Positions 4,896 to 42,682 of a stretch of DNA of 64,000 bases are shown here, one piece after another. The stretch comes from Acidimicrobiia bacterium (lineage in GTDB: Bacteria; Actinomycetota; Acidimicrobiia; Acidimicrobiales; Bin134). The notes beneath the pieces were generated by a model, which saw nothing but the letters and a program-made list of their open reading frames with translations, was not told where the DNA came from and ran no database searches. Position 1 is the stretch's first letter. Every line of letters begins with the position of its first letter. The DNA is taken from contig JAJDYE010000042.1 in assembly GCA_022822905.1 (NCBI GenBank), positions 1 to 64,000 on the forward strand, given 5' to 3'. The translations under genes and the position numbers were made by a program.

Positions 4896-4908
4896 CCCCT
4901 CAAGGTAG

Positions 4909-23446: not shown

Positions 23447-24265
23447 ATGTCAGAAGCCCTGAGCCCGGAGGAGATTGCCCGGAAGATCAAACGGGCCGGA
23501 ATCGGCAAGGCCAAGTTCGATCTGGCCCAGACCACAATCCTCGGCATAATGGCCGGCGCGTTCATCGCCCTGGGCGGCGTGTTCGCCCTGACCATCGCGG
23601 TCAGCCCGGAGCTGGGAACCGGCCCGGCCCGACTGCTCATCGGTGTGGGCTTCTCGCTGGGGCTGTTCTTGGTGGTGGTTACCGGGTCGGAGCTGTTCAC
23701 CGGCAACAACCTGATGGTGGCCAGCTTCTTCAGCCGGCGCATCAGCGGGCGCGACCTCTCGCGCAACTGGGCGCTGGCCTTCGTGGCCAACCTCATCGGC
23801 GCTCTGGTGATCGTGTTTCTGCTCTACTTCAGCCGATGGTGGGCCCAGGCCGACTACTCGTTCTCGGCGCGGACCATCCAGATCGCCAACGACAAGGTAA
23901 ACCTGTCGTTCGGCACCGCGTTCGTGCGGGGGCTGCTGGCCAACATGCTGGTGTGCTTGGCGGTGTGGATGGCGGTGGCCGGCCGCTCGCTGGTGGACAA
24001 GATGATAGGCATCATCCTGCCCATCACCGCCTTCGTGGCCGCCGGCTTCGAGCACAGCATCGCCAACATGTTCTTCCTGCCGCTGGGCTGGCTGGTGTCC
24101 ACCGATGCCGACGCCCTGGCCGCCGCCGGCCTCACCACTGATGAGATCGACCGCCTCAACTTCGGCTGGGTGGCCCACAACCTGATCGCCGTCACCCTCG
24201 GCAATATCATCGGCGGTGCCCTCGTCGGCCTCACCAACTGGACCGTCTATCTAAGACGGCAGTAA
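23447..24265 (+). CDS. Formate/nitrite transporter (FNT) family channel
   Basis: 272 aa from ATG 23447. Six membrane segments with GFSLGLFLVVVTGSELFTGNNL and FAVANxxG-like FVANLIGAL repeats characteristic of FNT pentameric anion channels (formate, nitrite, hydrosulfide). The last 13 codons are duplicated 1.37 kb downstream at 25600-25638, with the XRE/Fic module in between. This suggests that the 3' end is an integration target and that the present C-terminus may have come from the element. Confidence 0.9.
   Translation: MSEALSPEEIARKIKRAGIGKAKFDLAQTTILGIMAGAFIALGGVFALTIAVSPELGTGPARLLIGVGFSLGLFLVVVTGSELFTGNNLMVASFFSRRISGRDLSRNWALAFVANLIGALVIVFLLYFSRWWAQADYSFSARTIQIANDKVNLSFGTAFVRGLLANMLVCLAVWMAVAGRSLVDKMIGIILPITAFVAAGFEHSIANMFFLPLGWLVSTDADALAAAGLTTDEIDRLNFGWVAHNLIAVTLGNIIGGALVGLTNWTVYLRRQ
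24227..24265 (+). repeat. Left 39-bp direct repeat (FNT 3' end)
   Basis: The last 39 bp of the FNT gene, from the Gly-Leu-Thr-Asn codons to the stop. The copy at 25600-25638 matches 35 of 39 positions, all differences being silent or in the stop codon. Sequence similarity ends at the repeat borders on both sides. It behaves like an attachment-site repeat (attL) bounding the XRE/Fic module. Confidence 0.75.
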
Positions 24266-24290
24266 ATAAACAGGTTATGACCTGTTTATT
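24265..24290. promoter_or_regulatory. Operator O1, perfect 11-bp palindrome
   Basis: Arms AATAAACAGGT and ACCTGTTTATT with a 4-nt spacer. The core AACAG-N8-CTGTT recurs in O2 and O3. O1 overlaps the FNT stop codon. Centre-to-centre distance to O2 is 33 bp, about three helical turns, as expected for cooperative repressor dimers. Could double as the FNT terminator, though no T-run follows. Confidence 0.65.
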
Positions 24291-24294
24291 GCGA

Positions 24295-24323
24295 TTGATA
24301 CTACAGGGATTAACCTGTACCCT
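24295..24323 (+). promoter_or_regulatory. Promoter and operator O2 of the XRE/Fic module
   Basis: TTGATA (24295-24300), 17 bp, TACCCT (24318-24323) form a plausible sigma-70 promoter. Between and over the -10 lies O2, TACAG-N8-CTGTA (24302-24319). A repressor bound there would block polymerase, fitting autorepression by the XRE protein. The GTG start at 24331 lies only 7 nt after the -10, so the message would be leaderless or nearly so. Confidence 0.55.
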
Positions 24324-24330
24324 ATGTCGT

Positions 24331-24801
24331 GTGCAGAATTCCGAACTGGCCCGCAACCGCCTAGACGACCGACTCAAGACTATCCCCTCCCCTGGCGACT
24401 TGGCTCGCCCCCACAAAGGGTGGATCCGGGCTATTCGCGACGCCCTCGGCATGAGCGCCAGTGAGCTGGCCTCCCGAGTGGGAGTCCGCCAGCAGACCAT
24501 CAGCGAAATCGAACGCAGCGAGCAGCACGACACCATCCGACTGAAGACCCTGGAGAGCGTCGCCCAGGCCATGAACTGCCAACTGGTCTACGCCCTCATC
24601 CCCGACACCACCCTCGAGGAAATCCTCATGAACCAAGCCAGGCACAGAGCAATTCAGCATCTAGAAGCAATTTCGCAGCACAGCCGGCTCGAAGATCAAG
24701 CTGTCAGCAACAAAGAACTAGCCGACCAAATCGAAGAGTTGGCTGTTCTACTCGCTGGGCGGCGTGGTCTGTGGACTGAGGAGCCAGTCGCCTCACAGTG
24801 A
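24331..24801 (+). CDS. Mobile mystery protein A (XRE-family regulator)
   Basis: 156 aa from GTG 24331; the frame is open to 24277 but that would span both operators. The helix-turn-helix reads MSASELASRVGVRQQTISEIERSE with the following DTIRLKTLESVAQAMNCQLVYALIP, the signature of the TIGR02612 family ('mobile mystery protein A'), which always precedes a Fic partner. Likely represses its own operon through O1-O3 and may act as antitoxin. It overlaps the Fic gene by 4 nt (GTGA). Confidence 0.88.
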   Translation: MQNSELARNRLDDRLKTIPSPGDLARPHKGWIRAIRDALGMSASELASRVGVRQQTISEIERSEQHDTIRLKTLESVAQAMNCQLVYALIPDTTLEEILMNQARHRAIQHLEAISQHSRLEDQAVSNKELADQIEELAVLLAGRRGLWTEEPVASQ

Positions 24802-25385
24802 CCGATGCCCTAATGCCCATAGGAGAAGGCCACACTGAGCTTTCTCCTGAAGATCACGATGGATTGATCCCGAGCTACATCGCAACCCGAGGCGACCTAT
24901 ACGACGCGGAGCAGCGAAACATCGCCCAGGCCCTGCTGCGCCGCCCTCCGCGAACAGACGAATTGCTCGACGACAAGTATCTCCGCGACCTGCATAACGC
25001 TATGTTCGGCCAAGTCTGGAATTGGGCCGGCCAATACCGAACGCGTGAGACGAACATCGGCATCGAGCCCACCCAGATCGCCGTTGCCGTGCGCTCGCTC
25101 ACCGACGACGTCACCTGGTGGATCGACTCGGAGACTTTCGCTATCGACGAAATCGCCGTTCGATTCCACCACCGACTCGTCGCCATCCACCCGTTCCGTA
25201 ACGGCAACGGACGCCACGGCCGCGTCGCCGCCGACTACCTAGCTCGCGCCCTCGGCACCAAGCCTTTCACTTGGGGCCGCTTCCTCGACCTAACCACCAG
25301 CGGCCTCCGCAAGGCCTACCAATCCGCTTTGCAACACGCCGACGCTGGAGCGATCAAGCCACTCCTAACTTTCGCCCGCAGCTGA
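24798..25385 (+). CDS. Mobile mystery protein B (Fic domain AMP-transferase)
   Basis: 195 aa. The complete Fic motif HPFRNGNGRHGR lies at 131-142, including the catalytic His and the nucleotide-binding Arg. The N-terminal LIPSYIATRGDLYDAEQRNI block is typical of TIGR02613. Fic enzymes usually AMPylate protein targets; whether this pair is a true toxin-antitoxin or a signalling pair is not known. GTG start coupled to the XRE gene. Confidence 0.92.
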   Translation: MTDALMPIGEGHTELSPEDHDGLIPSYIATRGDLYDAEQRNIAQALLRRPPRTDELLDDKYLRDLHNAMFGQVWNWAGQYRTRETNIGIEPTQIAVAVRSLTDDVTWWIDSETFAIDEIAVRFHHRLVAIHPFRNGNGRHGRVAADYLARALGTKPFTWGRFLDLTTSGLRKAYQSALQHADAGAIKPLLTFARS

Positions 25386-25392
25386 TCAGAAC

Positions 25393-25418
25393 GTACGCCC
25401 ATTCGTCAGTGGGCGAAC
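25393..25418 (+). terminator. Hairpin after the Fic gene
   Basis: Nine-base arms (GTACGCCCA / TGGGCGAAC) with one mismatch and an 8-nt loop, 8 nt after the fic stop. No clear T-run follows, so termination is only likely. Confidence 0.4.
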
Positions 25419-25433
25419 AGCTTGTTACCTGTT
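25416..25433. promoter_or_regulatory. Operator O3
   Basis: AACAG-N8-CTGTT, the same arms as O1, overlapping the hairpin end and the TTG at 25432. It places the Phd-like frame, or the right end of the element, under the same regulator as the XRE/Fic operon. Confidence 0.5.
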
Positions 25434-25638
25434 GATTACCCGTCGGTATTGTCCTTCCATAGCTGGAACGGACGATCACAGCGACCAACCGATTTACCTG
25501 TCCCTACCTGAAGCCGAAGTTCTGTTCAGCGACATCATGCAGGATGCCGCAACGGGTGGTGCGGAGTTCATCATCACAATTGACAAGGAGCCCGCAATAG
25601 GCCTAACCAACTGGACCGTCTACCTGAGACGGCAGTAG
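25432..25638 (+). pseudogene. Hybrid frame: Phd/YefM-like antitoxin N-terminus joined to FNT 3' end
   Basis: 68 codons. Residues 20-56 (IYLSLPEAEVLFSDI, GAEFIITIDKEPA) follow the Phd/YefM antitoxin pattern of a LPEA helix and an EFIIT strand. At codon 57 the sequence switches to the FNT C-terminus (GLTNWTVYLRRQ) with its stop. The toxin-binding half is gone. I read it as an antitoxin gene cut by the junction that created the right repeat. TTG start; expression uncertain. Confidence 0.6.
25600..25638 (+). repeat. Right 39-bp direct repeat (FNT 3' end copy)
   Basis: Second copy of the FNT gene end, 35/39 identical with 24227-24265, and in the same reading frame. Sequence before it is Phd-like, sequence after it is unrelated to the region after the left copy. 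Probably the original chromosomal end (attR) if the XRE/Fic module integrated here. Confidence 0.75.
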
Positions 25639-25668: not shown

Positions 25669-26088
25669 CTAGTCGGCGGTGCCCCTTTCCAATACCCATT
25701 GGTGAGGCTGGCCGGTGATCTCGGCAACCAGTTCGAAATCGGCGTCGTAGTGCAAGATGATCAACTGGCGAGCCTCAGCTACCGCGGCAACCAGGGCATC
25801 GACGAGAGAAAGCGCTCGATGCTGGCCTTTCTCAGCAAGTTGTCGTTGGATGCCGATCGCCCGATGATGGTCGCCGTCGGTGACCGGCACAGTCTCAAAC
25901 GCGTCAAGCCGAGTCATGATCGCCTCGTGATCAGCTGAGCTGCGGGCGCTGAACCCGAGCTCAAATATCACCGGTGAGCACAGGGCAATACGCCCCTCAG
26001 CCATGAGCGGAGCAGCAGCAGCGGCCACCGATGCCTTCGAGAGGCGGGCAAAGACGCTCGTATCGGCCAAGTGAGTGGCCCGGGCCAC
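25669..26088 (-). CDS. vapC: VapC-type PIN domain toxin
   Basis: 139 aa ribonuclease of the PIN fold. Acidic residues D9 (LADTS), E43 (VIFELGF), D97 (SLVDALVAA) and D116/D118 (HYDADF) form the metal site. GTG start overlapping the antitoxin stop by one base (TAGTG), the usual coupled arrangement. VapC toxins cut tRNA or rRNA when freed from VapB. The toxin is complete. Confidence 0.92.
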   Translation of the reverse strand: MARATHLADTSVFARLSKASVAAAAAPLMAEGRIALCSPVIFELGFSARSSADHEAIMTRLDAFETVPVTDGDHHRAIGIQRQLAEKGQHRALSLVDALVAAVAEARQLIILHYDADFELVAEITGQPHQWVLERGTAD

Positions 26089-26300
26089 TATGCGTCGCCG
26101 CCCCAGGCCAGTTCAGCCGCTTCAAAGTCGAATCTGCCCTCTTCGCTCAAGAGCGCCACGAGCTCTAGCCGACGCTTGGCATTTACGATTTCCAGCAGCG
26201 AAGCATGCACCGTTTCTCTCAGCGTCGTCGTTCCCAGAATCGCCGCGGCCTGATCAGCGATATCTCGATCCACATTAATAGATGTCTTTGCCATACCCAT
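26088..26300 (-). CDS. vapB: VapB-type antitoxin
   Basis: 70 aa. Residues 5-13 (TSINVDRDI) and the following helices form a ribbon-helix-helix DNA-binding part; the C-terminal half (EIVNAKRRLEL, FDFEAAELAWGGD) should wrap the toxin. A decayed paralogue of that C-terminal half is at 838-975. ATG 26300 or 26294. Coupled to vapC. Confidence 0.88.
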   Translation of the reverse strand: MGMAKTSINVDRDIADQAAAILGTTTLRETVHASLLEIVNAKRRLELVALLSEEGRFDFEAAELAWGGDA

Positions 26301-26365: not shown

Positions 26366-29300
26366 TCACTCGAACTCGGACGCTTTGGCACCGAGGTTGG
26401 TGGCGTTTTCGGAGACGGTTCGTTGTGTGGAGTCTTCGAAGCCTTCGGGGTTGGTGGCTCGGACTTCTAGGACTAGTTCGACGTTGGTGCCGAGGTGGGA
26501 GTTGATGTGCTCGGCGATCTCGCCTAGCTCTTTGATGCAGCGCACGGGGTCGAGGTCGAACTGGGCGTAAAACTGGGTTGGGCTGGTACTCATCGCTGAG
26601 CCAGAAGTCCCCGACGAGGTGCCGGGAGATTGAGTGTCAGCTGATGGTCTTGGGCCCTCCTGCTCGGGAGACTCCGGTTCCGATGGCTCGGGCAGCTGGT
26701 CGGGGTGTACCAGTAAGCCGCTTGGGGTTGGGTTTACGTGCTGAAGGGTTTGGACGCCAACCCACGTTGAATCGTCGTGGGCTTCGGCATAGGCGAAGGT
26801 CTCTTGGGCCCAATCTGTTGTGGCGGTGCCTGTGCTGATGGCTGAGTTGAGCACACGGGGCGACGACAGCCTTGGCATATGGGGGTAGCGGGCGTAGGTT
26901 TCCCACAGCTTTCCCACTGCCACATCGCCCCGCTCTGACCACAGTTCTCGGCGATCAATGTCCATCCGCACTCGGACGCCGCTGTAAGTCGCGATCATCT
27001 TCTCTTCGGTGGCCAATTTCTTGGAGACACGGGAACCTATATCGCCGCTGGCGGCTGCCCTTGTGGTCTGCCACTCGACCTCAGAAGTCCCCGCCTCCTG
27101 CTTGGGGGTGAGCACCTGGGTGAACGTCTCGGAAATGAGGCTGTCCACCTGCTGTGACACTTCTTTCACCTTGCTCTCAGCCTGACTTTTCTGATGGGGA
27201 GTCAGGTTGAGAGCCTCGTGCTCGTGGGCGATCGACTGCCAGGCCAAGTACGACCGGGCCGCGTCTCGCAACTCGCTCAGTCGGTTGGCGGTCGCCGCCA
27301 CAAACACCAACAGGTTGCGGTTCAACCGTGGACCGCCGTGGCGCTGATCCAAGATGCTTTGAGCAAGCGCCACTGCCGGAGAGTTCTCATCGTTGGAGGA
27401 ATGCGTGGCGTCGGGAGCGAGCACTACCAGCCGCACACCGTCATCGTCATCAGGCACACCACCCGGCCCCTCGGCGAACACTTGAATCGCCGCGAAATCT
27501 CCGCGCTCCCGCTGGTTCTTCAGCCGAGACGCCACCTCATCGTCGGCGTGGAGATCGGTGTAGTTCGAGGCCGCCCGATCAGCGGCCATCCGGGTGACGT
27601 TTGGCTGAAGCGAGTACCAATACTGGGCCCCGTCTACGTACAGGTGGGTGGCCTCCCCCGACAGCCGCCGGAGGGCGTCGGCAAACTGACCGACTGGCTC
27701 GCCCGGCTGCACGCAACCCAGCACCACCGACTTCAGATCCACACCCCGCTTCCCGTCGGGCCGGGGCGCCGAGCCCATGTACACGGTTCGGGCTGCCCGT
27801 CTGGTGGCAGAGAATCGGCCGAAATGGGTGTACTCGTTGTCGATGCGCAGCGGCAGGGCGTTGGCCCCGTCCACATCCGACTTGATGACAGGATCCCAGG
27901 CCTCCTCCAGGTACTTCTTCATCTCGCTCACCAACGCACCCGAGTCCATCGGCAGGTTGCCGGGCATGATCAGAAGCGACTGGTCGCCGCGCTGCCAGAG
28001 CTGGGAGATGGCCAGGGCCATGAGCCGCAATGCGCCCCGGGTGCGCTGGAACTTGTCGAGGGCCGACCAGTCGTCGAACAACCGGTCGAACAGCTCGGGG
28101 TGGATCGGATACGACAGTTCCATTCGCCTGCGATAGTCGGCCTCGCCAACGCCCGACGGGAACTCCTTGCCCTGGTCCCGGTACATCTCGCTGAACGCCC
28201 GGATGACCCCGTCGCGCACCCTCGCCTTGTCGGGCGGAATCGGGTCGAACAGCCGCCGCCGGACGATCTCAAACGACTCATCGGGCGACGCCGGCTGCCA
28301 CTGGGCGGCGGTGCGGGTGACCACGTTCTTCAGCTTCTCCAGCGCCGTGCGCCCCTTATCGCCGCCCACCTCGATGTCCGAGGCGGGAATCGACACCAAG
28401 ACCACCACATTGGGCACCGCCGCGGCCGCCTCGGTGAGGGCTTGGGCGAAGGTGAACTGAGTGTCGAAGTCACCGCCAACGGAACGGCTCTTCTCGTCGC
28501 CGTCGCGCAGTTGGCGGGCGTAGGCCACCCACTCGTCGATCAGCACCACCGCCGGCCCGCACTGCTGGAACAGCGACCGAAGCGCAGCGCCAGGGTTGGT
28601 CCCGGCCTCATCGTCGGCCCGAACCAGCTCATAGGCGCTGCGGCCCCCGAGCTGATAGGCCATCCGTCCCCACAGGGTATGCAGCAGCACGTCGTCTTCA
28701 ACCGGCTCCGGTGCCGAGGGGGAGATCATCTGCCCCACCAGCACGGCCCGGGACACGTTGTCGGGGAGCGACAGCCCTTCTTCAGCGAGTATCTCGCCGA
28801 CTCCGGACAAGTCCTTGGCGGCTGCGTCTGACGCCAGGTGGTACAGAGCGATCAGGCTGTGGGTTTTGCCGCCGCCGAAGTTGGTCTGCAACTCGATCAC
28901 CGGGTCGCCGCCGCCCCCCGAAAGCCGCCGGGCCGCCCCCACCAGCAAATCCCGCAGTCCCTCAGTGATGTAGGTGCGGGCGAAGAACTCCCTCGGGTCT
29001 TGGTACTCCGGCTCGGCGTTGCCGCTCAGCACCTCGAACAGGTTGGCGGCGAACTCCACCTGCTCGAAGCTCCCCTGGGCCACATCGGCGTGCGGGGTGA
29101 TGATGTCGCGCCACGGCGTCAGGCCCGCCTGGGGCTGGCCCTCGGTGGGCTTCGCCGCGGTCTTGCGCCGCTCCGCCCGCGACTCCTCTTCCATCATCTG
29201 GCGCATCAGGTCGCGGCGCAGGCTACGAATCTGCTGGCGCTCTTCGAGGTTCCCGAATGCCTCCAGCAGCCGCTCCATGGAATCGAGCGCCCGCACCGTG

Positions 29301-29608
29301 TCGTCGGTGGACAGCGCCTGCTGATGAGCCCAGCTATTGCGGGCATCGGCCACCTCGAACACCAGCGCCCGCACCGCCGGCGGGAACCCATGGCCGAACA
29401 CCTCCTGCCAGGTGGCCTTCATCCCCTTGAACAAAAAGGCCGCATCGTCAACAGAAGGACTGCGCTCCGGCGTGTGAAGCCGCCCGTTCACCGCATCGAG
29501 CCACACGTCCCCATAGAACCCCCGCCAAGTGTCCTCGCACTTCGGCCGAAGCCCGTCGCGCAGCAGATCAAGCGCCTTGGAGATGCGCTCGGTGTTGGCC
29601 ATCACCAT
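26366..29608 (-). CDS. DUF499 ATPase with Swt1-like HEPN N-terminus
   Basis: 1080 aa. Residues 1-125 resemble an Swt1-type HEPN domain, with RNSWAH (R90, H95) matching the Rx4-6H RNase motif. The ATPase has Walker A FGGGKTHS (about 244-251) and Walker B VVLIDEW (about 340). A Pro/Ser/Glu-rich linker near 970-1010 precedes the C-terminal DUF499 end (YAQFDLDPVRCIKELGEI). DUF499 (COG1483) ATPases occur with DUF1156 methyltransferases and helicases in defence loci; here both partners are nearby. Start ATG 29608 or 29602. Confidence 0.88.
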   Translation of the reverse strand: MVMANTERISKALDLLRDGLRPKCEDTWRGFYGDVWLDAVNGRLHTPERSPSVDDAAFLFKGMKATWQEVFGHGFPPAVRALVFEVADARNSWAHQQALSTDDTVRALDSMERLLEAFGNLEERQQIRSLRRDLMRQMMEEESRAERRKTAAKPTEGQPQAGLTPWRDIITPHADVAQGSFEQVEFAANLFEVLSGNAEPEYQDPREFFARTYITEGLRDLLVGAARRLSGGGGDPVIELQTNFGGGKTHSLIALYHLASDAAAKDLSGVGEILAEEGLSLPDNVSRAVLVGQMISPSAPEPVEDDVLLHTLWGRMAYQLGGRSAYELVRADDEAGTNPGAALRSLFQQCGPAVVLIDEWVAYARQLRDGDEKSRSVGGDFDTQFTFAQALTEAAAAVPNVVVLVSIPASDIEVGGDKGRTALEKLKNVVTRTAAQWQPASPDESFEIVRRRLFDPIPPDKARVRDGVIRAFSEMYRDQGKEFPSGVGEADYRRRMELSYPIHPELFDRLFDDWSALDKFQRTRGALRLMALAISQLWQRGDQSLLIMPGNLPMDSGALVSEMKKYLEEAWDPVIKSDVDGANALPLRIDNEYTHFGRFSATRRAARTVYMGSAPRPDGKRGVDLKSVVLGCVQPGEPVGQFADALRRLSGEATHLYVDGAQYWYSLQPNVTRMAADRAASNYTDLHADDEVASRLKNQRERGDFAAIQVFAEGPGGVPDDDDGVRLVVLAPDATHSSNDENSPAVALAQSILDQRHGGPRLNRNLLVFVAATANRLSELRDAARSYLAWQSIAHEHEALNLTPHQKSQAESKVKEVSQQVDSLISETFTQVLTPKQEAGTSEVEWQTTRAAASGDIGSRVSKKLATEEKMIATYSGVRVRMDIDRRELWSERGDVAVGKLWETYARYPHMPRLSSPRVLNSAISTGTATTDWAQETFAYAEAHDDSTWVGVQTLQHVNPTPSGLLVHPDQLPEPSEPESPEQEGPRPSADTQSPGTSSGTSGSAMSTSPTQFYAQFDLDPVRCIKELGEIAEHINSHLGTNVELVLEVRATNPEGFEDSTQRTVSENATNLGAKASEFE

Positions 29609-29757
29609 CGGCGCCGCTCCCCGTCAGGCATGCTCACGCCCCCACAATGCCACGCAGCAGCGACATATCCTCTGCCCGACCCCCGATCACCAACACAGAA
29701 AAAGAAGAACAGCATATTTCGTTGCTTTTCCATTCACCATCCGATAGACAAGGAACA

Positions 29758-30021
29758 ATGTTGGATCGCAAAGACCCGATCAGCCCGTACCCTCCGCTGA
29801 CCGAAGAAGAGAAGGAAGAACTTGCAAAGGAGTGGGCCGACTACGTGCCTGATCCAATCGTCATCTCAGAAGAGCGGAAGCAGGAACTCCGCGAGGAACG
29901 TGAACGATACATCGCTGAGCTCATCGAGGAATTCGGTGAACCCACCGCCGAGGAGGTGGCTCGTGCCGAAGCTTGGTGGAAACCCATCAAGGAGCACCTG
30001 ACAAAGAACGACACGCCGTGA
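29758..30021 (+). CDS. Antitoxin of a PIN-type pair
   Basis: 87 aa, ATG 29758 with AAGGA 4-9 nt upstream. Acidic and Glu/Lys/Arg-rich, with one long helix (EERKQELREERERYIAEL) and a C-terminal EAWWKPI segment likely to bind the toxin. No DNA-binding motif is obvious. It overlaps the PIN toxin by 4 nt. Identified by context; the family is not one I can name. Confidence 0.7.
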   Translation: MLDRKDPISPYPPLTEEEKEELAKEWADYVPDPIVISEERKQELREERERYIAELIEEFGEPTAEEVARAEAWWKPIKEHLTKNDTP

Positions 30022-30404
30022 AGGCTCTCATTCTGGATTCTGGTGCAGTCACCGGCCTGTCCCGCCGAAACAGGCAAAAAACCGCCAACATCCGCATCGA
30101 CGAAAGCCCAGACACGTGGTCAGCCGTCGTGCCCTCCCTCGTGCTCGTGGAATGCCTATCAGGTAGACAGCACAACGACGCTGTGGTCAACCGATTCTTG
30201 AAAAGCTGCACGGTGGTTGATGGGCCTCACGAGAAGCTGGCTCGACGTGCCGGCACCTTGAGGGCGATGGCGGGCCGCGGGTCAGCCGTGGACGCGGTGA
30301 TAGTTGCCATGGCCGAACCCGGTGGCGCGGTTCTCACCGGAGATATCAACGACATCGCAGCCTTAGCCGCCTATGCCCGAAACGTCAGCGTCTTCGGCAT
30401 ATAG
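30018..30404 (+). CDS. PIN domain ribonuclease toxin
   Basis: 128 aa from GTG 30018 (GTGA overlap). Acidic residues D7 (LILDSGAV), E45 (LVECLSG), D92 (SAVDAVIVA) and D109/D112 (GDINDIAAL) complete the PIN site. With its antitoxin it forms the only plus-strand pair between the DUF499 and DUF1156 genes, splitting the two. Confidence 0.88.
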   Translation: MKALILDSGAVTGLSRRNRQKTANIRIDESPDTWSAVVPSLVLVECLSGRQHNDAVVNRFLKSCTVVDGPHEKLARRAGTLRAMAGRGSAVDAVIVAMAEPGGAVLTGDINDIAALAAYARNVSVFGI

Positions 30405-30462
30405 CCGCTAAACCACAACCAAGCGACCGCCGCCGTCTAAGTCGAGAGCACTTCGCAAGTGG

Positions 30463-33222
30463 TCATAAGAGGCTGTCTTGCACAGGGGCCACAGCTGCGG
30501 CAGCCGTTGCATCGGCCCCGGATCGGAGGCTGGGCCAGGCGGTGATGAGGCCGTTGTAGGCTCCGGCCTCGGCCGCCCATCCCTTGTCGTTGGCCTTCTG
30601 GTAGAGCAGGTAGGCCAGTTGGCGGGCCCGTTCGCCGTAGCCGCCCAGGGTGTGCAATAGCTCAGCCGCCTCTGATTCCGACCGCTCCAAAGCGGCGATC
30701 AGATGTTGCACCGACTCCCACACCGTGCGCCGAAGATCGTCGACGGGCGAATAGCCCGGCGGAAGCTCCGAGCGCTCATAGAGCCGGAACTTACCCGCCC
30801 GAGCCTCGCCGATGCCCGACTCCTCGATGCCTGCCAGCGACGTGTTCTTGGCATTGGCCACGCTGTCGGCATCCCCGGCGGGGCCGGCGTTGAAGCAGAA
30901 CTCGGAGAACCAGGTGAGTGCGAACCGGGTATCGGAATCCAGCTCGGCCTCCTCCCCGTCGAGCACCTCCCCCAGCACATTGTTGATGATCGCCAGCGCC
31001 GCCGACACCGGCATCGACGACCCATCCGCCTCCACCACCTTGGCATACCGCGAGAACACCTTGATCCCCGGCCCGATGGTGGACTGCGCCATGTCCACAG
31101 GGGCGATATTGCCCGACTGGAGAACCCGCACCGCTTCCGGCAACTCGGCACGGAGCGCTGCGATGAGCTCACCACGAGTAGCCAAGGATGCTGACGCGGC
31201 ACGAGGACGGCAAGCGAGAACAATCGAAGACGCGAGGGCATTGGCCTTTGAAGCAAGCAAGCGATTGCCCAATTCCGTCCGCATCGGCCAGGTGGCCGTG
31301 ATCTGCAACCCCGCATCCAGCACAGCCTGAAGGAAAGTATCCCAGCCTGTAGTCCTGATCTCGCCCTCTTTGGTCTCAGTGGCCTTGTAGGCGTAGTAGA
31401 TGGTCGATGGCGCTTGAGCATCCTGAGACTCGGCTACTTTCCCCATGAACTCGGCCATCCCCGACTCGAAGTGCTCCTGTGCCTGCTCCTTTGACCCGGC
31501 CCGATAGCGATTGGCCACCAACTCCTCGGCCTTCGGCGTCAACAGCGTGGAGCACTCATCGGGCCAAACCCCTGAGAGGTTTCTGCGTAGCCACACGTAG
31601 AAGAAGTCAGACAAATCCGCGTACGCGATGTTGTCGTAGTAGGGCGGATCAGTGGACACAACCGACCCGGCACACTCCCGCACACGAGCCCGAGCATCTC
31701 GCTGAGCAACCTCGCCAATGCCGATTGCGGGAAGTCGCTCCAACGCGCGCGCAAGACTCCCAAGGGAAGTCCGGAAGTCGCCTCCGGCGTCATTGAATAC
31801 ATTGTTCTCCGCGAAGTCCCAGGTCATTGCGATGGCTTGACGGCTGAACAGATTTCGTACCTGCGTTCTAGACGATTCCCACCGGCAGAAGGCATTGCAC
31901 ATGTCGGCAAGCCTGCTTATTCCCAAGGCCAGGTAGGTGACCACCGCCTCTGCATACGCTGATGCTCCTTTCCCTCTGTCGCACAGCCGATCATCAGCGG
32001 CCATGCCAGAGGCGAGAGCATCCACCGCCACCCGTTTCCGAGCCTCGGGTAGAAGGTCGGAGTACGTAGTCAGGGCTACAAGCTGTCTCGGCGTAAACAA
32101 CTTCCACCACTCATCGAGCCCGTAAATGGTGATCCAAATGTTCCGGGGATCAAGCGCTACACCAGCGCTCGGCTCGTGAATCGGGGTTTCAATCTCCGCA
32201 GCAGAAACGTCATCTCCGGCAATAGAGCAATATTTCCTGCCGTCAGCGCCCTCGGCCACAACGGCCATCATCTGCTGGCCCATGCGACCGGCCCGGCTCT
32301 CGGATTTGATGTAGTCCCCGGAGATGGCCGCTCCGGTGGCGATGCAGGTGCCATTGCCCTTGTTCACGGTCCGCTCATGCGTCGGCTCGCCGCCTTCGCG
32401 GATTTCGTAGCTGATGGTCTGCGCTTGGCAGTCGATGATCGGCTCAATCCAGACCTTGGGCTTGCCTGGCCGCTTCGCTAGCGTCCACGACGCCACCAGC
32501 GGCACATGTCCCGACCAACTCGGATCAGGCGACTCCACCGTCCTCGCCCATATCCAGGCAATCGGTGTCAGCTTCTCCCCGTTCGGACCCGTTGCATCTG
32601 GGTACAGGTGCCCAATCCGCCGCTTGGCCTCGTCGCGCATCCACCGCCCATAAGCCTCCACGTCCGCAGCCAACCCCTGCGCCCGCTCCCAAGTGCTGAG
32701 CGACTTGTCGATATCCGGATGTACCGGCGGCATCCCGGCAAAGCGGGGTGGTATCTCGATCATCGCCTTGTTGATCAGCACCGCCACCGGATTCAAGTCG
32801 CCCGCCAACGCCTTCAACCCCAGCCGCTGCGCCTCCAACGGAATGGCCCCACCCCCCGCAAAAGGATCAAGGATCGGCGGCGCCCCATCCGGAAAGCAGC
32901 GGTCGATCTCCGCCCGCGCCTCAGCCAGAACCTCAGGATCATTGGAGTTCTCCCACTTCACCAGCCGCTCCAAGATCCCAAACAGCCGCTGCCGCTCCGC
33001 CTCCTGCTCCTCCGGCGTCAGCGACTCATCCCCCGACGGATCGTCCACCAACGAAGCCCAAATCACCGCCCGAGCCGCCGCCAACGGCCGCCGAGCCCAC
33101 CACAAGTGCAACGTCGACGGATGCCCATGCCGAATCGACTTCTCCCGCGCCGCCTCCGCATTGATCGCCGCCAAAGGCAACGCCACCTCAATCAGCTTCG
33201 GCCGATAGCCCCCATCACTCAC
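30463..33222 (-). CDS. DUF1156 DNA methyltransferase (COG1743-type, adenine-specific)
   Basis: 919 aa. The N-terminus (PKLIEVALPLAAINAEAAREK, HLWWARRPLAAARA) is the DUF1156 signature. SAM-binding motif I is DPFAGGG (119-125) and the catalytic motif is DPPYYDN (525-531), the order of a split N6-adenine methyltransferase with a long insert between. It probably modifies host DNA for the DUF499/helicase system. Complete and not obviously disrupted. Confidence 0.9.
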   Translation of the reverse strand: MSDGGYRPKLIEVALPLAAINAEAAREKSIRHGHPSTLHLWWARRPLAAARAVIWASLVDDPSGDESLTPEEQEAERQRLFGILERLVKWENSNDPEVLAEARAEIDRCFPDGAPPILDPFAGGGAIPLEAQRLGLKALAGDLNPVAVLINKAMIEIPPRFAGMPPVHPDIDKSLSTWERAQGLAADVEAYGRWMRDEAKRRIGHLYPDATGPNGEKLTPIAWIWARTVESPDPSWSGHVPLVASWTLAKRPGKPKVWIEPIIDCQAQTISYEIREGGEPTHERTVNKGNGTCIATGAAISGDYIKSESRAGRMGQQMMAVVAEGADGRKYCSIAGDDVSAAEIETPIHEPSAGVALDPRNIWITIYGLDEWWKLFTPRQLVALTTYSDLLPEARKRVAVDALASGMAADDRLCDRGKGASAYAEAVVTYLALGISRLADMCNAFCRWESSRTQVRNLFSRQAIAMTWDFAENNVFNDAGGDFRTSLGSLARALERLPAIGIGEVAQRDARARVRECAGSVVSTDPPYYDNIAYADLSDFFYVWLRRNLSGVWPDECSTLLTPKAEELVANRYRAGSKEQAQEHFESGMAEFMGKVAESQDAQAPSTIYYAYKATETKEGEIRTTGWDTFLQAVLDAGLQITATWPMRTELGNRLLASKANALASSIVLACRPRAASASLATRGELIAALRAELPEAVRVLQSGNIAPVDMAQSTIGPGIKVFSRYAKVVEADGSSMPVSAALAIINNVLGEVLDGEEAELDSDTRFALTWFSEFCFNAGPAGDADSVANAKNTSLAGIEESGIGEARAGKFRLYERSELPPGYSPVDDLRRTVWESVQHLIAALERSESEAAELLHTLGGYGERARQLAYLLYQKANDKGWAAEAGAYNGLITAWPSLRSGADATAAAAVAPVQDSLL

Positions 33223-33316
33223 AGCCCGTCACGCTAGCTCGTGCCCAGCGCGCTGACCCCGGCAGTAACCGTACTTGGTGAGTCAGCAGTAGAAGGGTGC
33301 AGCACTCCCCGGAGGC

Positions 33317-34768
33317 TCACATGAACATGCGATAGGGGTAGACGCTTCGAGGAAGGTCAGGCACATTTGCGATGATCCGGGCGAGGCGCTGCGAATAGCG
33401 AATCGTGACTGGGATTGGGTCGTACAACGCGTCGTTGTTCCAATCCATCTTCGTGAGAGCTAGGAGTTCGGACGCGATAACTTCAAGGGGTCCGCGACCC
33501 ATCTGCCTGGTGAAGATCAAGGGAGATGGAATGCTCTTGCCTCCCTGGAAGAAGCTACCCCCTCGTTGCGCTACGGAGGGGGCATTTCCCGCTACCCAGA
33601 GCAGTGCTGAAGTCCCCGAAAGGGGGACCATCGTCCCGCGATGCACAGGATACCCATCAGGTTGGCTCTTGCTTCCTTGACTCCGCGGTGCCTGAAGCCA
33701 AACTCCCCGCCACTTCACATCCGTGGTTACCTTCACACATTCGACTTCTTTCACTGCGGCCAGTGCGTCGGAAACGCCTGCAAGCTCTTGTTCCTTGAAA
33801 TCCGTCGTCTTGTGTACTGCCACTCGCTGCGGTACCTGACCACCGTTACGGCGTCTATAGAGGTCTAGGCTTCTTGCCAAGACAGCACGCATGTCCGATC
33901 GGCTGAGATATGGATTCCGTCGAGCGTCCTCGGAATTGTCGAGGGGGTCGCGGGCGTCGTATGCCACGAACTGCATGCCACCGCCGTCCGCATCGAAGAG
34001 CTGGGAGCAGCAGGTTATGAATCTGGATTCCTGTGGGTTGCCTCGGAGGGCATAGGCAAGTCCTATGTATGCACTCTCGGAGGGAATCCCTGAAAGTGGA
34101 GCTAATCGCCACGGCGTCCCTCCGGCCTTGGCATAGAGGGCGATAACCAGCCGCCATGAAAGAGATGCCACATAGCGAAAGTCAAACGTGCGATCGTTGA
34201 TGACTTGCGTAGGCATCGACAACTCGGCGCCTATCGCCTTCAACTCGTCGTGGGCGTCAAAGCCTTCCCCATGGAGCCCGGGCCCCCAGCCATCAGGCAG
34301 GTGGACGACCGCAACATCGAACTGGTCGCGAACTCCTGCTAATTGCCGCAGCCGCTCTGAGATTGCTCGTCGGACTCGCTCATGCGGGGCTCCGTCTCCT
34401 AGTTCATCTAAACGAGAAGGCCAGTCCAGCCGCGTGCACTCTGGGGCTGGCACAAGTGGGATGCCAAAGAGCGACTCAAATCCAGGAAACTGTGGGACGT
34501 AATCGCGACGATCCGAGGGCGGCAGAGTTTGCCTTAGATTGCCGAGCACCTTTCTGCGCCCCTCTCTACCTGACTCGGGGCCCACAATGGCGACCCGCAC
34601 CGAGTCGGAATAAGTGGCCAGAGAGTTCTTGCTATAGGGCCCGTACGTCACCAGACCTCTGAGCGGGTGGGTGTCGATTTCAGATGGATCCGCCGACGAA
34701 AACGATAGGAACGGCTCTTCCAGTGGAGTATAGGGGGCCAGCAGTCCTGGGCGGGCTGTTGCGCTCAT
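33317..34768 (-). CDS. Short prokaryotic Argonaute (MID-PIWI) of SPARSA type
   Basis: 483 aa, the length of short pAgo. The MID part includes DQFDVAVVHLPDGW, and the PIWI part starts at QVINDRTFDFRYVASLSWRLVIALYAKAGGTPWRL, with SAYIGLAYA and FDADGGGMQFVAYDARD strands. There is no N or PAZ domain. Short pAgos bind guide RNA and target DNA but do not cut, and rely on a fused effector in an APAZ partner. ATG 34768 overlaps the APAZ stop (ATGA), so it is coupled to the SIR2-APAZ frame. Confidence 0.88.
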   Translation of the reverse strand: MSATARPGLLAPYTPLEEPFLSFSSADPSEIDTHPLRGLVTYGPYSKNSLATYSDSVRVAIVGPESGREGRRKVLGNLRQTLPPSDRRDYVPQFPGFESLFGIPLVPAPECTRLDWPSRLDELGDGAPHERVRRAISERLRQLAGVRDQFDVAVVHLPDGWGPGLHGEGFDAHDELKAIGAELSMPTQVINDRTFDFRYVASLSWRLVIALYAKAGGTPWRLAPLSGIPSESAYIGLAYALRGNPQESRFITCCSQLFDADGGGMQFVAYDARDPLDNSEDARRNPYLSRSDMRAVLARSLDLYRRRNGGQVPQRVAVHKTTDFKEQELAGVSDALAAVKEVECVKVTTDVKWRGVWLQAPRSQGSKSQPDGYPVHRGTMVPLSGTSALLWVAGNAPSVAQRGGSFFQGGKSIPSPLIFTRQMGRGPLEVIASELLALTKMDWNNDALYDPIPVTIRYSQRLARIIANVPDLPRSVYPYRMFM

Positions 34769-35394
34769 TCTCGGCTCCTTGCCAATGCCTGAGCCGGGCT
34801 GCTCCACGCAGTTGTCCAAGAGATGCGAAAAATCCCGTTGATGCCTTCGCTATCGAAATAGTGAGTCAACAGCTCTGTTTCAGATTCTGGAGCGACGAAT
34901 TTCGCCCAAGCAGCGACAATTCTGTTCCACGTTGGGTTGTAGCGCTGCGCCCATCGCTCTCGCCGCCAGTCGGCCGCAACGATCTTTGGGCTTGTTCCTG
35001 GATCGGTCGAGCTTGGGGATCTAGCCAGATCGTTCGAAGACGACTCAACGTCTTCAATCCGAGGAAGATCAATCCATGTATAGGGCTCGTAGACAAACCA
35101 CCAACGACTATCCCATTGTTCGAGCCGCACGCGGATAGCTTCAGAAAAGGGTTGATTGATCTCTGGTACGACACCTACCAGTGCTGATCCATACGCCTGC
35201 TGCAAGCCGTCCAATTGCTCTTCATGGCGTTGCACAACGTGATCGGCTTGCCTGTCCGTTGGCGGCTGAACGACAACCGCGTGCCCTCGACCCCGCAAGA
35301 CCGGCCGCAATGGTCTGCGTCGCGCAATTGCTTTTGTAAACGCATCGTAGATGAGGCCACGGTCGATCGAGTCTTGTGCTGGGTCGAGAGGCAC
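34765..35394 (-). CDS. APAZ segment downstream of the in-frame stop
   Basis: 209 aa from GTG 35394. The part VVVQPPTDRQADHVVQRHEEQLDGLQQAYG, RVRLEQWDSRWWFVYEPYTWIDLPR and WRRERWAQRYNPTWNRIVAAWAKF match the APAZ domain that clamps short pAgo. It is in the same frame as the SIR2 gene: 12 sense codons separate the TAG at 35431-35433 from this GTG. It could be made by readthrough, by re-initiation at this GTG (only a weak GGAAGA nearby), or not at all. Confidence 0.75.
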   Translation of the reverse strand: MPLDPAQDSIDRGLIYDAFTKAIARRRPLRPVLRGRGHAVVVQPPTDRQADHVVQRHEEQLDGLQQAYGSALVGVVPEINQPFSEAIRVRLEQWDSRWWFVYEPYTWIDLPRIEDVESSSNDLARSPSSTDPGTSPKIVAADWRRERWAQRYNPTWNRIVAAWAKFVAPESETELLTHYFDSEGINGIFRISWTTAWSSPAQALARSRE

Positions 35395-35430
35395 TCTTCC
35401 GCCCAGTTTGCCTCCAACAGATGCGAATGC

Positions 35431-35433
35431 CTA
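35431..35433 (-). other. In-frame TAG splitting SIR2 and APAZ
   Basis: Minus-strand codons read GAT CGG GAC CTC GAA TAG GCA TTC GCA. The frame before and after is the same and protein-like. A single C-to-T change from CAG (Gln) would explain it. Confidence 0.85.
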
Positions 35434-36624
35434 TTCGAGGTCCCGATCCGCTCCGAAAGCGACCAGTGTCCTCCCACGTGACGCCACAGTCGCCCACACT
35501 TCAGCTTCTTTGACGAGTTTTCGAGCTTCTCTGGTCGAGAGAGGCCCGCTCAAGACGATTTCTCTGGCTTCGCGTGGTAGCTCAAGCACCTCGAGCGCTG
35601 AGCATCGCAGAGCTGGGAAGGTTGCAGCTCTGACCCTTGGAAGAGTTACTGGCTGGATGATGGGACGTGGTTGCACCTCGCGTATGTGCTCAAGAAGAGG
35701 GACCTCCATAGACACTTGCCGCTCTATGTCACCAGCAAGCTCATCAAAGTTCTCAGAATCGACAATGCGGACCTCGATGCCCGATTCCCCTGCCCGTTGC
35801 AGCAACTCTTGGACCCTCGGGAGGAGTTGCTCATTTGGTCGAGACACCCACCAAAGGCCAGAGGGCATGGCTCCCTCGATGGCCACAACCTCATCTAGGG
35901 CATCCATGACCGAATCGTCACGACCGCTATAGCCAGCAACGACGAGCCCGAATCGAGTAAGGACCTGGACGAACACCCTCCTCAGCCGTTCGTCCTGAAC
36001 CTGGAGTTCTTGAGCAGTGTTCTTCAGGTGCTCAGACTGATAGTCGCCATGCAACTTCACCAGCAGGGGCCAATCACCCTCACTGATGCACCGCTCCCCT
36101 CGTTCGATTGAGTCGAGTGCACTCACGGTGAGGTGTGACCGCTTCTCCGGAGGAAGCAGATCATCAGTGATGACAGTGGCCCGCTTGATGAGGTCGTCAA
36201 AGTTCGTGGTGAATAGGCAGTGGATCTGGCCGCTCGAGATCAGACCAGCCAGGACACGGTGACCGAAGGATGGAATTCCTTTCGTCACAGCATTGTCGAT
36301 GTACGAACGACGGTCGCGGGCATCCGGATACGCAGCTTCAAATGCCACCGCATACTCGCCTGGGTCGCCTTGCGGCGGAAAACCGCGCGCACCGTCGAAG
36401 TGAGACAAGACGCGCTGCTCCCAAATCGGATCGCTTATGTCCACCTCTTGGCGAGAGAGGTTCATATGGTCACAAAACAAGCGAGTCTTGAAATCGGCGA
36501 TCATGTCCACGCCTGTCGGTACGCCCGCAGATGCCGATGTGCCAGCACCAAGCAGCCAGGCAAGTTGGCCGGTTCTCTGGCCAAATGAGCGAGCAAAGGC
36601 ATCGGATGTGACGCGGTCAACCAT
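35431..36624 (-). CDS. SIR2-family NADase, N-terminal part of SIR2-APAZ
   Basis: 397 aa from ATG 36624, ended by TAG. NAD-binding GAGTSASAG (26-34), TTNFDD (139-144; N141, D143) and catalytic H192 in VKLHGD are all present, so the NADase active site looks intact. In SPARSA systems SIR2 is joined to APAZ and depletes NAD+ when pAgo finds invader DNA. Here the chain stops at codon 398, after DRDLE, before the APAZ part. The frame upstream to 36684 is open but unlikely to be used. Confidence 0.85.
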   Translation of the reverse strand: MVDRVTSDAFARSFGQRTGQLAWLLGAGTSASAGVPTGVDMIADFKTRLFCDHMNLSRQEVDISDPIWEQRVLSHFDGARGFPPQGDPGEYAVAFEAAYPDARDRRSYIDNAVTKGIPSFGHRVLAGLISSGQIHCLFTTNFDDLIKRATVITDDLLPPEKRSHLTVSALDSIERGERCISEGDWPLLVKLHGDYQSEHLKNTAQELQVQDERLRRVFVQVLTRFGLVVAGYSGRDDSVMDALDEVVAIEGAMPSGLWWVSRPNEQLLPRVQELLQRAGESGIEVRIVDSENFDELAGDIERQVSMEVPLLEHIREVQPRPIIQPVTLPRVRAATFPALRCSALEVLELPREAREIVLSGPLSTREARKLVKEAEVWATVASRGRTLVAFGADRDLE

Positions 36625-36983
36625 GATCGACTCCAGGCACAGACGCGGACACCCGACACTCAATACGCGGCGATGTGTTGGCATCCAGCCTGCACGAACT
36701 CATGAGGGATGCTCCATGACCGTCTGGATGAAGTCGAGAAGTGCTCATGAGCTGGACACCGTCCTGTAATTACGGTGGCGTACTTTGGGGTGCCCACCAT
36801 ACCCGGTCGGCGACGACAGAACCACCGGTTTCAGGAGAACCCCTGCTGTGGCCCTACATGGGGCGAACCTTGTTGGCGAGCACGAGGGCGCAGTCGTGCT
36901 CTGCGAGCTTTTGGTGCAACGCCGACAGATTATTGAGGGATCGCCGCTTGGGATCAACGGAGTCGAGAGCGAACCCCCGAGGC
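36625..36983. other. 359-bp spacer upstream of the SPARSA operon
   Basis: No convincing gene. Short frames on both strands have no start signal or family pattern. A minus-strand stretch at about 36854-36960 (LSALHQKLAEHDCALVLAN) looks protein-like and could be the decayed end of a small domain. The promoter of the SIR2 gene should lie in the part nearest 36625. Confidence 0.35.
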
Positions 36984-37385
36984 TCAGAGAGGGCGGCGTT
37001 GGATGCCGTTAGCGTGGACTGCGTAGAAGAAGGGTCCTGGTTGGGCGCATGCCCTTGTGATTGCATCGAGATTGACAATAAAGCGCCGAGCCATCTCGGT
37101 TGACGGCAGGTTTTGGCGGGTTATGCAGAAGCAGCGAGTGCCGTATCGCCTGATGGCCCAACCCTCTCGGGTTCGGATGCGCCCGTCTTTGGTGAATGCC
37201 ACCCAATCGCGGTTGGCCGCAAGTGATAGCCAATCCTCGTCTGCTACATCTTCGTCTTGTGGGATTCCGTAGTGCTCGGCAAGTGTGACCACCCTGAGAC
37301 CTTGGGCGCGCAGAAGGTCGGGAACCTGTCGGCGTCCCAGGCTGCGGTCTAAGAAGATGTCAGGCAGCCCGGCAGGATGTGACAC
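36984..37385 (-). CDS. PIN-like toxin (VapC45-type)
   Basis: 133 aa from GTG 37385, overlapping the upstream antitoxin gene by 26 nt. Reads LPDIFLDRSLGRRQVPDLLRAQG, then DEDWLSLAANRDWVAFTKDGRIR, the PIN-like pattern of the DUF5615/VapC45 group, with acidic residues in FLDRS and DEDW. The C-terminus ends in RRPL. Function as a toxin is inferred from the DUF433 partner. Confidence 0.8.
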   Translation of the reverse strand: MSHPAGLPDIFLDRSLGRRQVPDLLRAQGLRVVTLAEHYGIPQDEDVADEDWLSLAANRDWVAFTKDGRIRTREGWAIRRYGTRCFCITRQNLPSTEMARRFIVNLDAITRACAQPGPFFYAVHANGIQRRPL

Positions 37386-38079
37386 GCAGAACGTCCAGCA
37401 GGTGGTCAACGGGCACACCGAATTCGAGGCTCACACCTTCGAGCGATTCGCCGGCTTGGAAGAGAGCCAATGCATCCTCGACCCGGGCAGCGCCACAGCT
37501 GAAGATCGGGGCCCCAGAGGATCGACGCGGGTCCGCCACCACTGCCCCGTGCAAGTACGGCGGCACTCGAATGAGCTCAGCGAATCCGTCGGTGCCATAG
37601 TCGATGCGATCCAAATACGACGAGATCACTTGATCGAAGACACGCTGGCCGCTGCGGACTACCACCAACTCCATTGCCGCGTGTCCCTCTTCGGAGTCGC
37701 CGCGCCGGTGGCCGTAGTCGTAGAGGATCTCGGCTCCGTCGGTATAGAGCCTCTGAGACGCCAGGGCATGATCGACGCCGATCTCTTTGATCAGCACCTC
37801 CAGCGCAGGGCGAACACGTTGGAGGGGCACTCCCCGCCGCCGGACCGCAGCAACCACCAGCGCCTCCGCCGCGCCGATGAAGGGAATGGACGGCCAGCCC
37901 CTCCCTTGGGGTTCGATCCACGTCACTATCGGCTTGCCAATGATGTTGGGCTTGCCCGTCCTCCGTCGCTGGTACCCCTTGGCCCAAGCGGTCATGGTGG
38001 AGACAGGAACATCAACGATCCGCGCTGCCTCGGCAACCGTGTACAGCGGGTTTTGCATCAGATCCACGTCTAGGAGCAC
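37360..38079 (-). CDS. DUF433 antitoxin with N-terminal helix-turn-helix
   Basis: 239 aa from GTG 38079, which has a purine-rich AGGAGAGGAGG just upstream; ATG 38058 and 38139 are alternatives. The N-terminal YTVAEAARIVDVPVSTMTAWAKG is a MerR-like DNA-binding helix pair, and the C-terminal DPRRSSGAPIFSCGAARVEDALALFQAGESLEGVSLEFGV is a DUF433 domain. DUF433 proteins are antitoxins of PIN-like toxins. Longer than minimal DUF433 (about 80 aa). Confidence 0.82.
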   Translation of the reverse strand: MLLDVDLMQNPLYTVAEAARIVDVPVSTMTAWAKGYQRRRTGKPNIIGKPIVTWIEPQGRGWPSIPFIGAAEALVVAAVRRRGVPLQRVRPALEVLIKEIGVDHALASQRLYTDGAEILYDYGHRRGDSEEGHAAMELVVVRSGQRVFDQVISSYLDRIDYGTDGFAELIRVPPYLHGAVVADPRRSSGAPIFSCGAARVEDALALFQAGESLEGVSLEFGVPVDHLLDVLRVTSCRAA

Positions 38080-38216
38080 CAATCCTCCTCTCCTGATAAG
38101 CGTACCAGCACCGATTCGCTGTGAAGTGAGTGCCTGCATCCATGGGAGTCGATGCTCACCTAAGGAGTGCCGGGTCTTTCCTTTCTGAGCACCCCCGGGC
38201 GCTGGCGAGCTGCTGC

Positions 38217-41776: not shown

Positions 41777-42682
41777 ATGAGTTTGAGGCTGGATGGCAAG
41801 GCGGCGATGGTTACGGGGGCGGGGAATGGGATTGGGCGGGCCATTGCGCTGCTGTTGGCGGAGCATGGGGCTCAGGTGGTGGTGAACGACCTGGGGACTG
41901 ATGAGCTGGGTGACGGGGCGGACGCTTCCCATGCGGCCCAGACGGTGGCTGACATCGAGGCGGCGGGGGGCACGGCGGTGGCCAACCACTCAGACGTGGC
42001 CAGCTTCGAGGGGGCTGGGGCAGTGGTGCAGCAGACGGTGGACGCTTACGGGCGTATCGACATCGCGGTGAACTGCGCCGGGGCGGCTATCGAGGGGTCG
42101 ATCTATGAGATGGCACCGGATCTGTATCACAAGACCATCGCCTTGCAGATGTCCCAGAAGTGGTACATCGCCCGCCACGCGGTGCCGCTGATGGTGGCCC
42201 AGGGCTGGGGCCGGGTGGTGAACACCACCTCACACGGGGCACTGGGCGACCTGGGCCAGCCGGCGTTCGCCGCGGCCATGGGCGGGGTGATCTCCATGAC
42301 CAAGGCCCTGGCCACCGAGACGGCGGGCACCGGTGTCACCGTGAACTGCCTGGCCCCGGGGGCTGCCACCCGGCTGCACGCCAAATCGCACGATGGCTTC
42401 AAGGCCTGGCACGAACAGGGGATCATCGACGACGAGATGTGGCAGAGCTACCTCACCACTCCCCCGCCCGAGTACGTGGCCCCCGCGGCGGTGTGGCTGT
42501 GTACCGATGCGGCCGACTACATCAGCGGCCACGTGGTCCACGCCGCGGGCGGCCAGGTGGCGGTGTTCAACGAGCTGCGAGAGGAGCGGGCCATCTACCG
42601 GGGCGACCACGCCGAGGTGGACCCGTGGACCTTGGACGAGCTCGACCACCTGTTCCCCCGCAACCTGCTGCCCCGGCCCTGA
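41777..42682 (+). CDS. SDR family protein with an altered active site
   Basis: 301 aa. The cofactor motif TGAGNGIG and the NCAGA strand are normal and Ser is present (NTTSHGA), but where YxxxK is expected the sequence is PAFAAAMGGV, so Tyr is Phe and Lys is Met. The C-terminal 45 residues are extra (YRGDHAEVDPWTLDELDHLF). It may have lost dehydrogenase activity or use another mechanism, as in MaoC-linked or hydratase-associated SDR relatives. Confidence is high for the fold, low for activity. Confidence 0.85.
   Translation: MSLRLDGKAAMVTGAGNGIGRAIALLLAEHGAQVVVNDLGTDELGDGADASHAAQTVADIEAAGGTAVANHSDVASFEGAGAVVQQTVDAYGRIDIAVNCAGAAIEGSIYEMAPDLYHKTIALQMSQKWYIARHAVPLMVAQGWGRVVNTTSHGALGDLGQPAFAAAMGGVISMTKALATETAGTGVTVNCLAPGAATRLHAKSHDGFKAWHEQGIIDDEMWQSYLTTPPPEYVAPAAVWLCTDAADYISGHVVHAAGGQVAVFNELREERAIYRGDHAEVDPWTLDELDHLFPRNLLPRP

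Follow-up and report, generated by a model that had tools for sequence, protein, structure and literature searches.

The 3' end of a formate/nitrite transporter (FNT) gene occurs twice in the window, the whole stretch of 64,000 nucleotides of Acidimicrobiia DNA analysed here, and the genes for mobile mystery proteins A and B (mmyAB) lie between the two copies. We lean towards reading this arrangement as the scar of an allelic exchange anchored in FNT, combining a homologous and an illegitimate join. In our comparison, FNT forms the invariant border of a hotspot for accessory genes, where an island of defence and toxin-antitoxin genes extends from FNT to an SDR gene; on the best explanation, mmyAB does not drive the event. 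The comparison separates this probable hotspot scar from a recurrent pattern at other loci, in which toxin-antitoxin cassettes of ~1.3-2.3 kb, with differing cargo and one common terminus, are located between copies of tRNA or gene 3' ends.

A detached FNT end lies beyond mmyAB

A second copy of the final 39 bp of the FNT gene stands in frame 1.37 kb downstream, with 35 of 39 positions identical (Table 1). The repeat finder returned 38 bp at 92% identity (24227-24264 versus 25600-25637, spacing 1373). Both copies translate to GLTNWTVYLRRQ*, and including the last stop base gives 35/39. The match extends to 41 bp against the FNT ends of other species or alleles, and the 39-bp right copy has the same sequence as the FNT end of genome G020. 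The first-pass annotation had described this recurrence around the mobile mystery genes, and the repeat finder and the NCBIfam models confirm it.

We scanned 22 genomes, among them that of the window (G000), with a degenerate pattern built on this FNT end, allowing up to three mismatches and using the reversed pattern as a control. The pattern matched once per FNT gene and at four extra positions, one each in G000, G003, G007 and G014. It was absent from all other places in the 22 genomes, and the reversed control gave no match anywhere. The repeat is real and specific, beyond chance. Genome G003, a separate assembly, is organised in the same way at this locus, so the repeat is no assembly artefact.

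All differences between left and right copies, as well as those among right copies, are synonymous; the expected synonymous share of random changes in this stretch is only 26%. Because the differences are exclusively synonymous, the right copies appear to be the 3' termini of other FNT alleles, which still worked in the recent past. If gene ends were exchanged with elements, the final 39 bp of FNT should show raised divergence; they do not. Pairwise identity is uneven along FNT, as in a mosaic gene.

Gene content of the island

The two copies enclose only mmyA, mmyB and an antitoxin-like fragment, without any integrase gene. Both proteins score well above the curated NCBIfam cut-offs (122.6 bits for TIGR02612, 124.4 bits for TIGR02613), and their genes are adjacent and overlapping, as in a mobile mystery A/B pair. 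MmyB belongs to the Fic AMP-transferase family (PF02661, 52 bits) and carries the motif HPFx(D/N)GNGRxxR in the form HPFRNGNGRHGR. Judged by domains and gene order, mmyAB is most likely an XRE/Fic pair acting as an autoregulated toxin-antitoxin module.

We consider GTG 24331 the more likely start of mmyA. The start at 24277, which gives a long ORF, is wrong, as G003 has a stop there, and the upstream part is unconserved. An inverted repeat straddles the FNT stop codon upstream of mmyA; it is a likely mmyA operator, but could also be a terminator, or both.

The DNA just before the right copy looks like a broken antitoxin gene. This fragment has no family match and no relative in the genus, and it is missing in G003. 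A fused 68-aa ORF (25432-25638) was rejected as a gene, since it has no family match and is absent in G003. On the other side of vapBC, an Hma-type defence system (HmaC, HmaB and a probable HmaA helicase; 26366-41762) constitutes most of the FNT-SDR island.

Table 1. Features of the window at the FNT locus
Feature	Position	Strand	Evidence
FNT (formate/nitrite transporter), 272 aa; fixed left island edge	23447..24265	+	PF01226, 4e-70
Left copy, native FNT 3' end	24227..24265	+	
Inverted repeat AATAAACAGGTTATGACCTGTTTATT, 26 bp, near-perfect, at FNT stop	24265..24290		read from sequence; perfect in G003
mmyA, mobile mystery protein A, XRE-type HTH	24331..24801	+	TIGR02612, 149.7 bits; probable start at GTG 24331
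mmyB, mobile mystery protein B, Fic domain with HPFRNGNGRHGR	24798..25385	+	TIGR02613, 215.4 bits; PF02661; Fic structures
Short Phd/YefM-like antitoxin fragment, runs into FNT-end copy	25477..25599	+	by eye
Right copy, detached FNT 3' end	25600..25638 (25598-25638 versus other alleles)	+	
vapC toxin, PIN domain	25669..26088	-	PF01850
vapB antitoxin	26088..26300	-	PF09957, weak: E 0.0009, below curated cut-off
hmaC-like AAA ATPase (DUF499), Hma-type defence	26366..29608	-	PADLOC HmaC, 937 bits
hmaB-like DNA adenine methylase (DUF1156)	30463..33222	-	PADLOC HmaB, 1062 bits
Helicase ORF, probably hmaA	38217..41762	-	sequence motifs only
SDR oxidoreductase; fixed right island edge	41777..42682	+	adjoins FNT in empty genomes

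Variation downstream of FNT across the genus

The close relatives are sponge-associated Acidimicrobiia, and one mmyAB-bearing congener is Candidatus Poriferisocius aerobius. FNT is present in 21 of the 22 congeneric genomes; the one without a match is 68% complete. We compared the FNT loci up to ~18 kb downstream, as far as contigs allowed. The content 3' of FNT varies widely among the 22 genomes, and divergence begins at the stop codon or within a few bases of it. Five genomes (G002, G006, G015, G018, G020) have empty sites, in which one FNT end is followed by the SDR gene after ~50-70 bp. In the window, a 17.5 kb island with mmyAB, vapBC and the HmaC and HmaB matches separates FNT from SDR. 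The first-pass annotation had suggested looking for relatives with an empty FNT site, and these five provide them. Each has a single FNT end, so no empty site already carries both repeats, the state that the annotation had considered incompatible with insertion.

The extra FNT ends are confined to the four genomes named above, and vapBC follows directly after each of them. The vapBC-side segments of G000 and G007 are 78% identical. In G007 and G014, the extra FNT end encloses not mmyAB but 4.6 kb of other DNA, ~90-92% identical to the segment downstream of FNT in G013. This enclosed segment breaks off within an oxidoreductase gene, and that gene is present again, intact, after vapBC. Ending inside that gene, the insert is a broken fragment and no defined element.

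Genome G001 has the order FNT-mmyAB-hmaC, with neither vapBC nor a second FNT end. Its FNT region, its mmyAB and its hmaC all match the window at ~78% identity, as expected if the three had been inherited jointly. A tail of mmyA alone directly follows the FNT stop in G010, and G005 and G017 show mmyA homology without mmyB. In G012, mmyAB is at another place, after a cinA-like gene end (assigned by eye), and has no repeats. The draft genome G011, with 5% contamination, has an FNT locus on each of its contigs C82 and C88 (loci L069 and L062) and may combine two strains in one bin.

Searches of the 22 genomes for tyrosine and serine recombinases (PF00589, PF00239) found none on the FNT contigs, some of which are short. 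In two one-contig genomes, the nearest such recombinase is more than 60 kb from FNT. An integrase-driven island at FNT was rejected, given these results and the lack of an integrase between the copies. The earlier description of a module without an integrase therefore holds.

Repeat-flanked mmyAB loci outside the genus

We extended the comparison to 44 mmyB loci, 41 of them outside this genus. Long direct repeats consisting of tRNA or gene 3' ends were found at five of the 41 (L149, L189, L191, L192, L204). L189 has a tRNA-Met end repeat (49/49; 4052-5663), and at L204 a second copy of the 99-bp 3' end of an 82-aa gene lies beyond mmyAB (5285-6871); both enclose mmyAB alone. At L149, a tRNA-Leu repeat (46/46; 4577-7181) bounds a 2.5 kb island with a tyrosine integrase that is truncated immediately upstream of mmyA. 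L191 has a tRNA-Phe end repeat. L192 contains four tRNA-Arg 3'-end copies (anticodon ACG by eye; array L231:4357-12414), between which lie modules of Fic, AbiE and ParE-mmyAB; an integrase fragment follows the last copy. No repeats of tRNA-Leu ends occur near mmyAB in L146-L148, and none of the 14 plasmid mmyB loci has tRNA or gene-end repeats. We notice that the order at L204 is the reverse of that at FNT, with mmyB rather than mmyA facing the intact target gene.

The first-pass annotation had expected other copies of the module to carry repeats of their own target gene end. This is true of the five loci, two of them enclosing only mmyAB, but not of G012 or the plasmid loci. Modules elsewhere without target repeats, which it had named as evidence against its model, thus exist.

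Repeat pairs 0.9-2 kb apart number five in 570 kb. In three of them, those of the window, L189 and L204, mmyAB alone lies between the copies; the sample is centred on mmyB and serves as a rough control only. The tRNA-Met of L189 is also the site of a hipB-hipA pair in L227 (2032-4356). The two cassettes have their terminal 145 bp in common as well as the copy of the tRNA end, at 91% identity over 193 bp. L228 (3638-3718) has a single tRNA-Met end, an empty site. All three are related gammaproteobacteria. The terminus of the tRNA-Met cassettes was not found in viral contigs, where a search for MmyB relatives gave one partial match of no use.

These repeat-flanked loci look like CIMEs, elements that have lost their integration genes and retain attL and attR; the definition of CIMEs and a model of tandem accretion are given in PMC5704250. 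We tentatively suggest that mmyAB, like hipBA, abiE and fic modules, may be cargo of tiny integrase-less cassettes with a shared terminus, which would enter tRNA genes and protein genes at their 3' ends by means of a recombinase in trans. The FNT locus would be the protein-gene version. These other loci give independent support to the idea that mmyAB rides small elements flanked by target gene ends.

Origin of the arrangement at FNT

In the exchange that we favour, donor DNA from another strain, homologous to the recipient in FNT on one side, would recombine there. At its other end the join would be illegitimate, which is the pattern of homology-facilitated illegitimate recombination. Either an FNT-mmyAB segment would thereby be placed next to a resident FNT-vapBC arrangement, or the other way round, and ~41 bp from the end of the other FNT allele would remain, stranded 1.37 kb downstream. 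The right copies would be the ends of FNT alleles, each with vapBC downstream, and the FNT-vapBC allele itself is predicted. We infer the route, direction and date of the exchange; the repeat, the empty sites, the vapBC linkage, the G007/G014 scar, the lack of recombinases on the FNT contigs and the purely synonymous differences are observations. The variety of sequences after FNT, the FNT-mmyAB-hmaC order of G001, the mmyA remnant of G010 and the mosaic-like identity along FNT likewise speak for the exchange. As homology-facilitated illegitimate recombination implies, the left side is homologous FNT and the right join falls in unrelated gene fragments (G000, G007/G014). The inserts share no terminus and end in gene fragments, which fits FNT-anchored homologous recombination with an illegitimate join. 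Against an exchange scar, no genome with vapBC immediately after FNT was found among the 22, which leaves the partner allele hypothetical. The FNT ends kept in the two independent scars are of similar short length (~41 and 46-52 bp); this looks site-like, unless recombination has removed longer repeats. In unrelated bacteria, too, mmyAB recurs as a bare unit between gene 3' ends.

This recurrence is what makes a CIME-like cassette the next possibility, although we regard it as the less probable one. Here the cassette would have entered the FNT 3' end by site-specific recombination, the FNT ends would be attL and attR, the integrase would act in trans or have since been lost, and vapBC would have been pushed downstream by tandem accretion. 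Like CIMEs, the segment is integrase-less, is flanked by copies of the target-gene 3' end and adjoins another accessory module. The five loci outside the genus, the three of five closely spaced repeat pairs that enclose just mmyAB, the presence of either mmyAB or hipBA at one tRNA-Met site and the truncated integrases kept at L149 and L192 all speak for it. The 35/39 repeat supplies candidate attL and attR, and a repeat does not in itself imply a recombination core. Unlike CIMEs, the FNT locus has no known related integrase or attP, its copies differ at 4 of 39 bp, and its insert ends in a gene fragment. No integrase is present at FNT in any genome, and the FNT contigs of the genus, some of them short, carry no related integrase-bearing element at the same site. 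The FNT end occurs nowhere else in the genus, nor as an attP in viral contigs. Moreover, the G000 and G007 inserts have no common terminus, and G001 has no right copy.

Every extra FNT end precedes vapBC, and G001 has mmyAB next to hmaC without vapBC. The newcomer could thus be a mobile vapBC unit whose own left end is a tail of FNT; mmyAB would then have been in place before. We find this unlikely: there is no FNT-end copy on the far side of vapBC and no integrase, and the arrangement is seen only at FNT loci. A single short repeat in a draft genome might also suggest local tandem duplication or an assembly artefact. That is highly improbable, as the copies come from different alleles, with four synonymous differences and a right copy equal to the G020 FNT end, and the same kind of copy appears in the separate assemblies G003, G007 and G014.

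The first-pass annotation had proposed that mmyAB inserted and rebuilt the host 3' end. The single-ended empty sites agree with this, but G001 without a right copy, the tie of the extra end to vapBC and the G007/G014 scar around other DNA do not. Integrase-free insertion of mmyAB at FNT is possible, yet it is not the best-supported reading. As for the mobility mechanism that the annotation had raised, repeat-flanked small elements elsewhere lend it support, and the FNT locus does not show site-specific insertion of mmyAB.

Relation to known systems

In a full-text search, the mobile mystery proteins came up in only four open papers, with one mention in each and none in a title or abstract. To our knowledge, no mechanism by which they move has been described. 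Our comparison makes the question directly testable. If true, the reading of cassettes moved by a recombinase in trans explains the 'mobile' in their name.

For the immunity-gene arrays of Vibrio T6SS, homology-facilitated illegitimate recombination has been proposed, leaving orphan 3' ends downstream (PMC5361080). As in those arrays, the FNT locus has a conserved anchor gene, a new segment beside it, an old 3' end displaced downstream and no integration sites. In contrast to them, the anchor is a transporter gene, the cargo consists of toxin-antitoxin and defence genes, and the junction is known from sequence only. The HipAB-bearing island GI21 is part of the 48-kb composite CGI48 and excises upon expression of integrase and excisionase (PMC8978831). 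Unlike GI21, the FNT-locus unit is ~1.4 kb, and no recombinase was found. Common to both is an island that sits at a conserved gene and carries a toxin-antitoxin pair; in GI21 the pair helps maintain the island.
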